Positions 40,001 through 46,186 of a stretch of DNA of 47,010 nt are shown one piece after another; within the stretch, counting starts at the first letter, position 1, and every line of letters starts with the position of its first letter. This DNA is from Caldithrix abyssi (GTDB lineage: Bacteria > Calditrichota > Calditrichia > Calditrichales > Calditrichaceae). The notes beneath the pieces are model-generated. The model did no database searches. It was not told where the DNA came from and worked only from the letters and a program-made list of their open reading frames with translations. Location: the NCBI GenBank assembly GCA_011369465.1, contig DRQG01000106.1:1-47010 (forward strand). The letters run 5' to 3'. The translations under genes and the position numbers were made by a program.

Positions 40001-41044
40001 CATCTGGCCGATCCGCGGGGCAAAATCCAGATAAACAACATAAAGCCCGATGTGCTCAAAGCGCTCAGTCAGGTTGATATTGAGGCGGAAGTCTTAACCG
40101 ATGGGCAGCGGAACACATCGTTTGACGGCGGTGCGGTGCTCATCGTGAACGACGCCCGATACGATTCGGTTAAACTCGGCGGACGATTTGATCCGGTAAC
40201 CTTAGACGGCCCGCTTATTTTCAAAGGAGAAGTGGCCGTGCAGGCCGGGCTGTTAAGCGGCCGTTTTATTGTGCCTAAATCGATCCGTTATAAAAACAAA
40301 CCCACAGGACGGGTAACGATTTTTGCCTGGACCGACGATAACTCGCAAACCGCTCTGGGTTACAACAGCAGTCTTCTGTTCAACGGTTCGACCAATATAG
40401 ATGACGCCGAAGGGCCGGAAATCGACATCTATTTTGAGAATCAGGAACAGTTTACCTCCGGGGATCTGGTGAGTGAGAATCCGGTGCTTATCGCTACGTT
40501 AGAAGACAACAGCGGAATCAATATGACCGACCAGACCGGGCATTTCATTTCGCTCAAAATCGATGATCAGCCGCCGCAAAATGTGTCCGGCTTCTTCGTT
40601 TACGAACGGAACAGTTATACCAGAGGAACGATCAACTACCCGCTGGATAATGTAAAAGAGGGCGAGCACCGCCTGCATATTTTAGCTTACGACAATGTGA
40701 ACAACCCTTCCGAGCGTGAGATTACCTTCAAGGTAGTCAAATCGGAAAACATTGCTCTCTCGGATGTGATCAACTACCCCAACCCGTTCAGCACATCCAC
40801 CCGTTTCACTTTTCAGACCAACCGCACGGGCGCGGATGTAACAGTTAAAATATACACCATCAGCGGGCGCCTGATTGAAGAACTGCGCGGCATATCGGTG
40901 AGCGGTTATAACGACGATATCGTCTGGAACGGCCGCGACCGGGACGGCGATACGGTTGCCAACGGCGTATATCTGTATAAAATTATTTTAGACGACGGAC
41001 AGGATTCCAAAGAAGTCATTGAGAAACTGGTGATTGTGCGATAG
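37022..41044 (+). CDS. C25 (gingipain-family) peptidase, PorU-like, with C-terminal sorting domain
   Basis: Secreted cysteine peptidase of 1340 residues. Signal peptide MISSFKRSLLPAFLFPLALFA, then an N-terminal region of about 620 residues, then the peptidase C25 domain (starts ADMLIITHKSF). Catalytic residues are visible: H863 in VNYVGHGSP and C898 in AATCDFGKFD. The C-terminal 90 residues form a T9SS type A-like / FlgD-like domain beginning NYPNPFSTSTRFTF and ending LVIVR. This domain order and length fit PorU, the sortase that removes sorting domains from type IX cargo; another surface C25 protease is possible. AAGGAG lies six bases upstream. Confidence 0.88.
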   Translation: MISSFKRSLLPAFLFPLALFAQNTATLYPDVKIIEQSASRIVIDWQPQDFRLNEIETDGKMFNRAVFDMAFSAGEPGMPDIPWRSFTVGKPKGSAVRITLLESDKTTFSNVNLAPLPEMGQNKQGISRFIYIQDASVYNSERLYPQQTILHADGGKFRDIAIEKIQLTPLQYSPATKTVQFHKRMRLLIEFTPPPGRSGKFRSRGKLDALYQSILLNFDQAKNWQSKERLALKKVSMSDGDWYRIPVTEDGMYKITRAVLADAGINTSGLSIDAVRLYNNGGHYLSYKVNGTHYNPPYTMEIPRFVHDANGNTIFDDGDYILFYGKNVNGWFYSEEAQDFRFHQHPYAKVNYYLLNINSAGGAKTMAEDIPPPQTNPAPADFFYDRYHFEEDLYNLLASGPDWYGNRFFGLSDSYSKTFSVITSQNPGALPRFRIRLKGGSGIKYGDNQNYRYYFTVTLNGRTLLNNVSFTEENRQTYSKDITDPTSVENGDNILNIQYSADRYESSSAYLDWFELYYPREFTAENEQLLIYTKTWQQPVRYTVNGFSAGSDVYVFNVTDPVNPTILYKNLNVQNGAVSFDTPVFETPQALLVLAQGSSAVLAPQTPARYNHGQDLLDVNQQADMLIITHKSFVPYAQQLAELRSELTSKIITMDEIYFNFNSTVPDPTALRNFIRYAYLNWQTPAPSYVLLFGDGHYDYRNITLPDTMRVPPFEIYDDHEIDSRTADMYYVDLDYSNSDTFRSLSPDLGIGRLPIESTLDAERMIEKIITYEKNPRQEGWQTLITLVADDEITPRSSSEWMHQNQAESFARLSQLKKFNKKKIYLSAYPSVPGGFGRIKPEANDDLIKTINQGTLIVNYVGHGSPVQWAHENVFNMSRDLERLNNPGKLTFVVAATCDFGKFDDPHDPSFSEAMIWREESGAIAVLSATRLVYSGDNAAFNTRFYKNLFPGGGPSAHLGNAWLASIYSSSTPNSRYSNVNDQKYHLFADPSMHLADPRGKIQINNIKPDVLKALSQVDIEAEVLTDGQRNTSFDGGAVLIVNDARYDSVKLGGRFDPVTLDGPLIFKGEVAVQAGLLSGRFIVPKSIRYKNKPTGRVTIFAWTDDNSQTALGYNSSLLFNGSTNIDDAEGPEIDIYFENQEQFTSGDLVSENPVLIATLEDNSGINMTDQTGHFISLKIDDQPPQNVSGFFVYERNSYTRGTINYPLDNVKEGEHRLHILAYDNVNNPSEREITFKVVKSENIALSDVINYPNPFSTSTRFTFQTNRTGADVTVKIYTISGRLIEELRGISVSGYNDDIVWNGRDRDGDTVANGVYLYKIILDDGQDSKEVIEKLVIVR

Positions 41045-41226
41045 CCGCATAAAATCACACGGATATTTCTCTTTTCAAACTGTATATGCATATTTTATCC
41101 TTATCAGAGCGATTGCTGCTTTTTATCTCATGAGGCCCCATCATGCTTTGCCTCCCAACACTTTGGGTGACGGCGATGACCTTTGAGAATGGCTCGGTAA
41201 AGGTTTATATATCTTTCACATTTTCT

Positions 41227-41495
41227 ATATAGATTCAATGGTGTCCGGTTAAATTATCGATGGATCTCACAAATCGTATTTGGAACACTTAAAAAAACTG
41301 TTGACCCTCCCCAACCCCGACAGGTCGGGGCTTCCCCTCCCTAATGCGATTAGGGAGGGGATTAGCCGAAGGCAAGGGGTGGGTTAGTGATTTGGCCTAA
41401 AGTGAAGTCGTGTTCTAATTAGAATCCAACTATCCTTGCTATTACTGATTTTTGCTATAAGCTCCATTTTTAACCGGACACTACTAATATAGATT
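41227..41495. mobile_element. MITE-like element with terminal inverted repeats and 9-bp direct repeats
   Basis: The 13-base sequence GTGTCCGGTTAAA at 41241-41253 recurs inverted at 41469-41481. The nonamer ATATAGATT stands at 41227-41235 and again at 41487-41495, as target-site duplication would leave. The element between (41236-41486, 251 bases) has 18-base imperfect inverted ends and no transposase ORF, so it is non-autonomous. GTGTCCGGTTAA ends look like those of some IS4-type elements (from memory). Inside are two strong hairpins. Confidence 0.8.
41315..41360. repeat. paired GC-rich hairpins inside the MITE
   Basis: CCCCGAC-AG-GTCGGGG (41315-41330) is followed by CCCCTCCCTAAT-GCG-ATTAGGGAGGGG (41334-41360), the latter a perfect 12-bp stem. 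Together they resemble other GC-rich repeats in the window, so a dispersed repeat may have been captured by the element. Confidence 0.75.
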
Positions 41496-41546
41496 AGTTT
41501 TGTAACCGAATTATTTCCTTATGTTCAATTACACCGGGAGGTTTCG

Positions 41547-42797
41547 ATGAAACTTGTTCTGTGTGGAATACTGATTCTTATTATGTTGGTATCCGTCCTG
41601 CCCGCAGCAAATTCTCCGGACAGCCTCGCTTCAACTCAAAATGATTATCCCAATGTTTTTATCGACTGCCGCAGTTGTGATACCGATTATATCCGTACGG
41701 AAATCACCTTTATCAACTATGTAATCGACCGTAAAGACGCGGATATCCATATTCTTATTACACGGGAACGTACGGCCAGCAACGGCCGGGAATACACCCT
41801 AACTTTTTACGGTGAAAAACGTTTTAGCGGTATCAATGACACATTATCTTATACCACTTTTCAAGACGATACGGATGATCTTATACGTCAAAAGATGGTT
41901 CATTATTTAAAATTAGGTCTGATCCGTTATATGGCCCGCACGCCCATGGCCGGGAATTTATCCGTAAATTATCGTTCCGCCTCTAAAAAGGAAAAAATTG
42001 AAGATGACTGGGACTACTGGGTTTTCCGCACAAGTTTAAACAGTTTTTTCAACGGTGAAAAAACATACAATTCCCAGTATCTTAATTTTCGTTTCCGCAT
42101 AGACCGCATTACCGAGGACTGGAAAATTCGTTTCCGTTTTGGGGCAAATTACAGCGAAGATAATTTTGACTACGGCGGACAAACGCTGTCCAGTTATAGG
42201 CGCGGGCAGAATATTTCCGCGCTGGTAGTAAAAAGCCTTAACAATCATTGGTCAGCCGGTATTAAAAGTTTAGCCTATACATCGACTTATGCCAATATCG
42301 ATCGATCAATTTCTATATTTCCCGCGCTCGAGTACAATGTTTTTCCCTATTCCGATTTTACGCGGCGGGAGTTGCGTCTGTTATACCGCCTGGGATATTC
42401 CTATTCGGTTTATAACGAGGTAACCATTTACGACAAAACGGAGGAAGGGCGCTTTTCAGAATCTCTGGAGATCGTTTTGGAACTGAAACAGCCCTGGGGC
42501 TCGGTGGAAACCAGTTTGCAAGGGTCGCACTACTTTTTTGATTTTTCCAAAAACAGTCTGACATTCTACAGCGAATTATCGCTGCGTCTGTTTAAGGGTT
42601 TTTCTCTGAATTTAAGAGGCGGTTACTCTATGATTCACGATCAGTTGAGCCTGCAGAAAAGCGATATCAGGCCCGAGGAAGTGCTTTTACGGCGGAAACA
42701 GCTGGAAACACAATACAGTTATTGGGGATCGATAGGGATCAGCTATACATTCGGATCGATTTACAACAATATCGTCAATCCGAGATTTGGGAATTAA
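41547..42797 (+). CDS. predicted periplasmic/outer-membrane beta-barrel protein
   Basis: Exported protein of 416 residues, not recognised as a named family. A signal peptide ends near VLPAANS. The segment VFIDCRSCDTDYIRTEITFINYV is highly distinctive, with a CxxC pair, and is followed by an alpha/beta region (ADIHILITRER, TLTFYGEKRF). From about residue 150 it is a beta-barrel of amphipathic strands (KIRFRFGANYS, ELRLLYRLGYSYS, FSLNLRGGYSM) ending in YWGSIGISYTFGSIYNN. GGGAGG lies six bases before the ATG. It stands alone between the MITE and the repeat-filled gap. Confidence 0.75.
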   Translation: MKLVLCGILILIMLVSVLPAANSPDSLASTQNDYPNVFIDCRSCDTDYIRTEITFINYVIDRKDADIHILITRERTASNGREYTLTFYGEKRFSGINDTLSYTTFQDDTDDLIRQKMVHYLKLGLIRYMARTPMAGNLSVNYRSASKKEKIEDDWDYWVFRTSLNSFFNGEKTYNSQYLNFRFRIDRITEDWKIRFRFGANYSEDNFDYGGQTLSSYRRGQNISALVVKSLNNHWSAGIKSLAYTSTYANIDRSISIFPALEYNVFPYSDFTRRELRLLYRLGYSYSVYNEVTIYDKTEEGRFSESLEIVLELKQPWGSVETSLQGSHYFFDFSKNSLTFYSELSLRLFKGFSLNLRGGYSMIHDQLSLQKSDIRPEEVLLRRKQLETQYSYWGSIGISYTFGSIYNNIVNPRFGN

Positions 42798-45716: not shown

Positions 45717-45930
45717 CAAACAATCGGATTGTTATCGGGAAGGAGTGATGGAGTACCGGAGTGATGAAATGGACTAATGGGTAGAATATCGTTTATTTAT
45801 CCGATTCATCACGCTCCAAAATTCCCTGTGTTACAATCAGAGTCATTACTGTCCAAAATAATTTATTATTGAAAAAACAGGCATTGTTTTATAAGGAGTT
45901 ACAACAACAATTATCTTCATTGTCATATCT

Positions 45931-45991
45931 GCTTGTGCGCCGTGGCGGGCTTGTCCGCTGTGGCGGGCTTGTCCGCTGTGGCGGGCTTGTG
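45931..45991 (+). repeat. 18-base tandem repeat, about 3.4 units
   Basis: Units of 18 bases at 45938-45955, 45956-45973 and 45974-45991, core TGTGGCGGGCTTGTCCGC with one or two substitutions, after a partial unit GCTTGTG. A fourth related copy GCTTGTCCGCCGTGGCGG stands detached at 46041-46058. The unit matches the CGCCTGTGGCGGG module of the repeat at 32884. Confidence 0.85.
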
Positions 45992-45995
45992 CGTC

Positions 45996-46073
45996 AACTC
46001 TCCCCCTTGGTCCCCCTCTCTTTTCGAAAGAGGGGGAAATGCTTGTCCGCCGTGGCGGAAAAGGGGGTGAGTT
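45996..46073. repeat. long inverted repeat with nested hairpin
   Basis: AACTCTCCCCCTT (45996-46008) pairs with AAGGGGGTGAGTT (46061-46073), one mismatch. Within it CCCCCTC and GAGGGGG (around 46013-46036) form a second stem. The same CCCCCTT/AAGGGGG pairing recurs at 46932-46949. Confidence 0.75.
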
Positions 46074-46186
46074 ACCATTTTCAGCAAGCAGGATTGTGTT
46101 AAAATTTCTATTTTGGACAAGTATGAATCAGAGTTTTTTCTTAAATAGCTAATTGTGATTTGAAATCTGGTCGGAAGGAGCTGAAA

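Follow-up and report, generated by a model that had tools for sequence, protein, structure and literature searches.

Introduction

Several kinds of short repeats scattered between bacterial genes invite comparison with the element described here. Miniature inverted-repeat transposable elements (MITEs) of prokaryotes are characterized, in the sections of a review cited here (PMC10969869), as noncoding units shorter than 500 bp with inverted repeats, a target duplication and a stable fold, and as largely intergenic, and the present element is alike in all these respects. In the same sections, the term 'IS4' has no occurrence, and no core common to MITE families with unrelated ends is described. 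The insertion sequences (IS) closest to our case belong to the IS4Sa subgroup, which is defined, in the cited part of PMC2266710, by ends starting with CA and having T at position 9, by duplications of 8-10 bp, by a length of 1150-1750 bp and by the YREK motif. BrickBuilt, a MITE of Porphyromonas gingivalis, likewise has a distinct repeat module inside, lies between genes and occurs in many copies, but its module is a 23-nt minisatellite according to the portion of PMC4596501 consulted, whereas that of our element is a cloverleaf of hairpins. REP/BIME and other stem-loop families, as far as the passages cited describe them (PMC3733652, PMC2267715, PMC2817692), are short palindromic intergenic repeats, as cores without clear ends may be in our case, whereas the present cores are multi-hairpin units of ~65-100 nt.

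A literature search on IS4 ends and MITEs, DUF4372, transposases of Calditrichota and Caldithrix, hairpin repeats and the GGGAGGGG motif, with subscription journals mostly outside its scope, gave, among the papers listed, none on the element. A family of IS4-type MITEs and its likely partner IS are now known in a poorly studied bacterial class. While an IS4-type MITE is an ordinary kind of element, and well supported here, the interesting part, which a specialist might not expect, is a core shared by elements with unrelated ends.

The element in the window

The window, that is, the whole stretch of 47,010 nucleotides analyzed (contig DRQG01000106.1), is part of the draft assembly of Caldithrix abyssi, hereafter the host, which amounts to 4.31 Mb in 161 contigs. 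One gene ends at 41044 and another starts at 41547; in the gap between them lies a 251-bp element at 41236-41486, the first member of what we call family A, with the following features.

41227 to 41235, no strand: left copy of the 9-bp target duplication ATATAGATT (direct reading; register test)
41236 to 41486, plus strand: 251-bp MITE of family A, the strand being assigned from its core
41236 to 41253, plus strand: left end, CAATG followed by the inverted repeat GTGTCCGGTTAAA
41302 to 41387, plus strand: 86-nt cloverleaf-like core (fold; covariance model R1)
41302 to 41312 paired with 41376 to 41386, plus strand: outer stem of the core, enclosing three inner hairpins
41315 to 41330, plus strand: core hairpin H1 (CCCCGA-CAGG-TCGGGG), whose sequence differs between subfamilies
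41333 to 41361, plus strand: core hairpin H2 (TCCCCTCCCTAAT-GCG-ATTAGGGAGGGGA), by eye the best conserved inner hairpin
41365 to 41373, plus strand: core hairpin H3 (GCC-GAA-GGC), from the fold
41469 to 41486, minus strand: right end, TAGTA followed by the inverted repeat GTGTCCGGTTAAA in the minus-strand reading
41487 to 41495, no strand: right copy of the 9-bp target duplication ATATAGATT (direct reading; register test)

A preliminary description of this DNA had pointed to inverted ends and a 9-base duplication around a transposase-free element of 251 bases with two strong hairpins, and it was right on each of these points. GTGTCCGGTTAAA at 41241-41253 pairs with its complement at 41469-41481 in 13/13 positions, and the ATATAGATT flanks at 41227-41235 and 41487-41495 are identical in 9/9. 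The ORF scan found no reading frame of at least 60 aa inside 41236-41486, which is thus without a transposase gene. The two hairpins, at 41315-41330 and 41333-41361, are parts of a larger fold with four helices. It is to be noted that five bases (CAATG / TACTA) separate the ends of the element from the start of the inverted repeats. With its length of 251 bp, its perfect inverted repeats and duplication, and copies at unrelated sites, 41236-41486 can be classed as a MITE.

The perfect 13-mer GTGTCCGGTTAAA occurs nine times in the host genome and the reversed pattern not at all. When up to two mismatches are allowed, the end has three matches within the window against 1.4 expected, a number reached by 17/100 shuffles, and TAGTGTCCGGTTAA, a 14-mer resembling AGTGTCCGGTTAAA, has 43 matches genome-wide against 25 for the control. 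Ends matched as loosely as this are not specific.

Copies of family A and the register of target duplications

The preliminary description had proposed a search for other copies, and this was rewarding: besides the window copy, the host genome has four full copies (C34, C78, C74 and C113), 77-86% identical to it, as well as an incomplete one of 94 bp at C65 (97%) and, at C139, a fragment of one end, and many copies are found in relatives. Between the copies at C78 and C74 the identity is 95%. Matches to the 14-mer AGTGTCCGGTTAAA across 40 genomes of the class number 4 in the host, 30 in G006, 17 in G011, 9 in G022, 2 in G003 and a single one each in G017, G021 and G037, with no match in G002 and G014; its reversed control has one match across all 40 genomes.

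Some of these copies have peculiar structures. The one at C65 (L006, G000:C65:12430-12523) is chimeric, its left MITE half stopping inside hairpin H1 and running into another hairpin-rich repeat. The fragment at C139 (L079, 4156-4395) is located at the end where a reading frame is truncated, presumably one resembling a REP-associated tyrosine transposase to judge from its motif NHFHLLV. Three loci in relatives, L168 (G011:C190), L167 (G011:C181) and L174 (G003:C161), have family A ends around quite different structured interiors, of the types GTCATTGCGAGCGA... and TTACTTTTTG...CCAAAAAGTAA.

If the flanking repeats are true target duplications, they should appear in one register relative to the ends. 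Sixty-nine loci of the host and its relatives were scanned, 22 of which had no end-pair; 50 end-pairs were found, and 49 were testable, the right flank of the remaining one ending with its contig. Flanks of nine bases were taken 5 bases outside GTGTCC, with twelve other offsets as control. At the 5-base offset the flanks agree in at least 7/9 positions in 28/49 pairs and in 9/9 in 17/49, while at each of the twelve other offsets 0 or 1 of the 49 pairs reaches 7/9. The count of 28/49 is conservative, since some of the 49 pairs are chance pairings, with up to 6 mismatches. As to the five host copies, the duplications are identical in 9 of 9 positions for the window copy, 7 for C34, 9 for C78, 7 for C74 and 5 for C113, and both the window copy and C78 retain 13/13 ends along with their 9/9 duplications.

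Likely partner insertion sequences

What kind of transposase could recognize such ends? Complete IS elements of ~1.3 kb are found at G025:C20, with the duplication ATCAGTTAT (9/9, within a tandemly repeated stretch), and at G028:C74, with the duplication TCTTAAAGT (9/9). Their left ends are CACTAGTGTCCGG and CACTACTGTCCGG, their right ends are inverted, and both start 5 bases before (G/C)TGTCC, like the MITE. At G034:C33 both ends of an IS match and no duplication is readable; at G022:C147 the right end of an IS is present; and at G017:C135 an IS whose left part is off the contig has the right end TTTTAACCGGACACT, the only AGTGTCCGGTTAAA match of that genome, with the stop codon of its DDE transposase overlapping the repeat. 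The pattern of these IS4-type ends is CA(A/T)TAGTGTCCGGTTAAA. Against NF033592 (IS4 family), 4/4 partner transposases score above the cut-off of 115 bits, at 207-262 bits, and 3/3 full-length ones have DUF4372 and DDE_Tnp_1 domains. The YREK motif has the spacing Y-x2-R-x3-E-x6-K, and in the alignment this spacing was read by eye in P0001 as YKSRWEIEIFFRTIK.

In comparison with IS4Sa as outlined in the cited part of PMC2266710, the partner IS agree in CA ends, T at position 9, duplication, size and YREK. The IS left ends CACTAGTGT and CACTACTGT, each next to a 9-bp duplication, accord with the IS4Sa ends, as does the left end CAATGGTGT of the MITE; at the right end of the MITE, TAGTAGTGT, the first base deviates. 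The window element differs from that subgroup, as far as the same source describes it, in having no transposase gene, in its 251 bp and in a right end of TA, not CA. Judged by ends, duplication and size, and not by a tree, the partner IS and the MITE would thus fit an IS4Sa-like assignment. A Mutator-type (IS256) partner had also been considered because of the 9-bp duplication; in the host, Transposase_mut has a single match, a partial one covering positions 14-65 of 379, and the partner that did turn up is of the IS4 type.

In the host itself the search for a source gave nothing: the draft assembly yielded neither a DDE_Tnp_1 gene nor a relative of the G017 transposase. A protein search with the G017 transposase gave matches in 10 of 40 genomes; in G006 and G011, the genomes richest in copies, it gave none. 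The IS with the same ends that the preliminary description had asked for exists in relatives (both ends in G025, G028 and G034, the right end in G017 and G022) and was not found in the host assembly, and the transposase it had placed elsewhere in the genome has IS4-family candidates in related genomes and none found in the host draft assembly.

An empty site

A sister copy at G006:C6 sits where two genes nearly abut. Its flanks were joined, with the duplication counted once, and aligned to relatives. Among the matches listed out of nine loci, the joined flanks align across the junction in G005 (197/280 identical, 70%, with one 1-base gap), G012 (187/273, 68%, 4 gaps) and G003 (186/274, 68%, 12 gaps), and match G001 in two separate pieces. 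For this sister copy only, the empty-site comparison envisaged in the preliminary description thus gives, among the matches listed, a continuous site in three relatives. Around the window copy the neighborhood is not conserved: the downstream gene is present in 5/14 relatives, only 1/5 of which has a match, a weak one (31% over 83 residues), to the C-terminal 240 residues of the upstream protein, and the corresponding intergenic DNA of G011 does not align. That genome has a further G+C-rich cluster of hairpins (ACCCACCCTCCCGATAAAAAGCATCGGGAACCC...) upstream of its relative of the 41547-42797 gene (L228, G011:C150). When insertion sites are rejoined, no open frame of 60 codons runs across the junction in 20/28 of them, that is, the sites are largely intergenic.

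A core shared by elements with unrelated ends

Elements of G006 and G011 with the same ends as the window element have other arms and similar cores, in which the sequences of H1 and H3 vary with pairing mostly kept. A covariance model (R1) was built from 13 cores, and its matches were counted on both strands, with a single place able to contribute two of them. They occur in 13/40 genomes, with 73 in G022, 59 in G006, 47 in G002, 41 in G011 and 24 in G014. Of the ten matches in the host, five are its full copies, four are the opposite strand of such copies and one is a copy of family B, at C41.

In relatives, the core also lies in elements with other ends. Family D of G006 (L267, L269, L270 and L271; L268, cut at a contig end, was left out) consists of elements of 325-326 bp with the ends GGCTCTATGT or GGGCCTATGT and a core of the type seen in the window element. 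Its 8-bp duplications, read in four copies, are 8/8, 8/8, 7/8 and 6/8 identical, the 8/8 ones being TAAATGTT and TGAAATTT; in ends and duplication length, family D would resemble the ISL3 family. Family E of the same genome (~200-215 bp, ends GTGTCTGTCTATAAA, both ends found in 3/4 loci) carries the core as well. At G002:C210 (L276) and G002:C120 (L275) the core lies between long inverted repeats of the ATTAACTTGAGTTCGATCTAAGAA type, and at G028:C6 a core-like unit lies between repeats of the CTATCACGTGACATTTGAGAATTTT type with a flank repeat of 10/10.

Are these cores related, or merely built alike? Pairs of cores were compared with 300 shuffles that keep fold, strand and base-pair composition. 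The A-D, A-E and D-E pairs score above all 300, and so does the window core against G002:C276 and against G022:C102; the cores of A, D, E and these two loci are therefore related in sequence. For family B, 43/300 shuffles score as well (2/300 when pairs are also flipped), and for G028:C6 24/300 do (0/300 when pairs are also flipped). Sequence homology of the window core with these two is thus not established, and it is the architecture alone that is alike. Within G006 the D and E cores share 82% identity, which is higher than the value for several core pairs of family A. Because elements with the same ends carry other interiors, the 86-nt core looks like cargo.

Some cores may even be free-standing. 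A search for flanking inverted repeats covered 29 core loci in comparison with shuffles: no repeat clearly above shuffles was found at 5/8 G002 loci and 4/4 G022 loci, and in G002 a repeat was weak at C276 and strong at C210, being also read at C120. Yet the same search missed family A, D and E ends that are readable by eye (for instance at L278, L267 and L272), so that a free-standing state of such loci is likely rather than proven.

The shared core may come from its own movement, from recombinational exchange between MITEs, or from retention by selection. As a tentative proposal, to which we give somewhat less than an even chance, the core would be a separate transferable hairpin cassette, which MITEs belonging to several unrelated transposase families would have captured or exchanged within one class, and it might stand free elsewhere. 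Its hosts would then be A (IS4-type), D (GGCTCTATGT, 8-bp duplications), E (GTGTCTGTCTATAAA) and the ATTAACTTGAGTTCGATCTAAGAA element of G002, and transposition of the MITE would spread the core. If the core does pass from one MITE family to another with unrelated ends, it would be a passenger structure outliving any one transposase, and core exchange, if true, would offer a testable account of the similar G+C-rich intergenic hairpin clusters in many genomes.

Mobilization, age and alternative explanations

Further copies, IS4-family IS with like ends and 9-bp duplications in relatives, and the empty site of the sister copy together argue that the MITE moved in trans. Very probably, then, the window element is a non-autonomous MITE with IS4Sa-like ends, mobilized in trans by a transposase of the IS4 family. 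Such a DDE transposase (DUF4372 + DDE_Tnp_1) would recognize the CAATG/TACTA + GTGTCCGGTTAAA ends, excise the element and insert it at a pair of staggered cuts 9 bp apart, with ATATAGATT duplicated as a result. These cut-and-paste steps are established knowledge of the IS4 family. We infer that a transposase of this class moved the window copy, and that the source IS was lost from the host or is missing from its draft assembly.

How recently did this happen? The preliminary description had suggested fairly recent movement, for which the intact duplication and ends speak; the suggestion is weak because no other full copy exceeds 86% identity. A refinement of our reading, and not an alternative to it, holds that the element is old and immobile, its transposase gone and its perfect duplication having merely survived. 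Consistent with this are the failure to find a transposase in the host assembly, the divergence of the other copies from the window copy (77-86% identity) and the duplications decayed to 7/9 in two host copies and 5/9 in one, but the window copy and C78 are intact in ends and duplications, and the host IS may be absent only from the draft, since multi-copy IS elements are often lost from draft assemblies. On balance, we regard such a relic as quite conceivable though rather short of probable.

Another explanation shifts the weight from the ends to the interior: the core would be selected as an RNA or DNA structure, for example as a protector of transcript ends, the MITE ends being only a delivery vehicle. 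Related cores do occur in elements with different ends, and where no clear ends are found, and the fold is far more stable than that of shuffles (whole element, -97.1 kcal/mol, z -7.3; 86-nt core, -53.5 kcal/mol, z -5.8; 0/200 shuffles as stable in either case), but long inverted repeats fold well whatever their function. Covariation in the core is weak: RNAalifold on 13 cores gives a compensatory change in 1/28 pairs, that is, almost none, and an unfavorable covariation term of +1.04. Nor was there any Rfam match for 41100-41620 up to E = 1, or any terminator- or promoter-like site in 41040-41560, and we therefore hold selection for such a function to be unlikely. Searches for the core in plasmids, for the element in phages and for the H2 pattern in viral contigs gave no match.

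Finally, that an A+T-rich 9-mer is repeated by accident around a coincidental inverted repeat, for which nothing but the A+T richness of the duplication speaks, is refuted by the further copies, the IS elements whose ends are of the same kind and the register-specific duplications in 28/49 pairs, and this, with the 9 to 0 excess of the perfect 13-mer over its reversed pattern, makes chance, already called unlikely in the preliminary description, a negligible explanation.

A second family in the window

Another MITE family, named B, is represented in the same window by the following features.

45835 to 45843 and 46126 to 46134: family B target duplication AATCAGAGT, 9/9
45844 to 46125, plus strand: second MITE in the window (family B), with the ends CATTACTGTCCAAAATA / CATACTTGTCCAAAATA and the duplication AATCAGAGT (9/9)
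45996 to 46073: G+C-rich hairpin core of family B, similar in architecture

Family B has 56 matching stretches in the host genome, and it may break the assembly, because several of them are close to contig ends. In one family B MITE of the host (L213, G000:C58:12000-13100), H2 is interrupted by an element with ends of the CAGGCTGTTGCAG / CAGGCTGTTTCAG type, and a similar element interrupts H2 of a family A-like MITE in G011 (L169, G011:C229:1-1500); elements with such ends may target hairpin loops.
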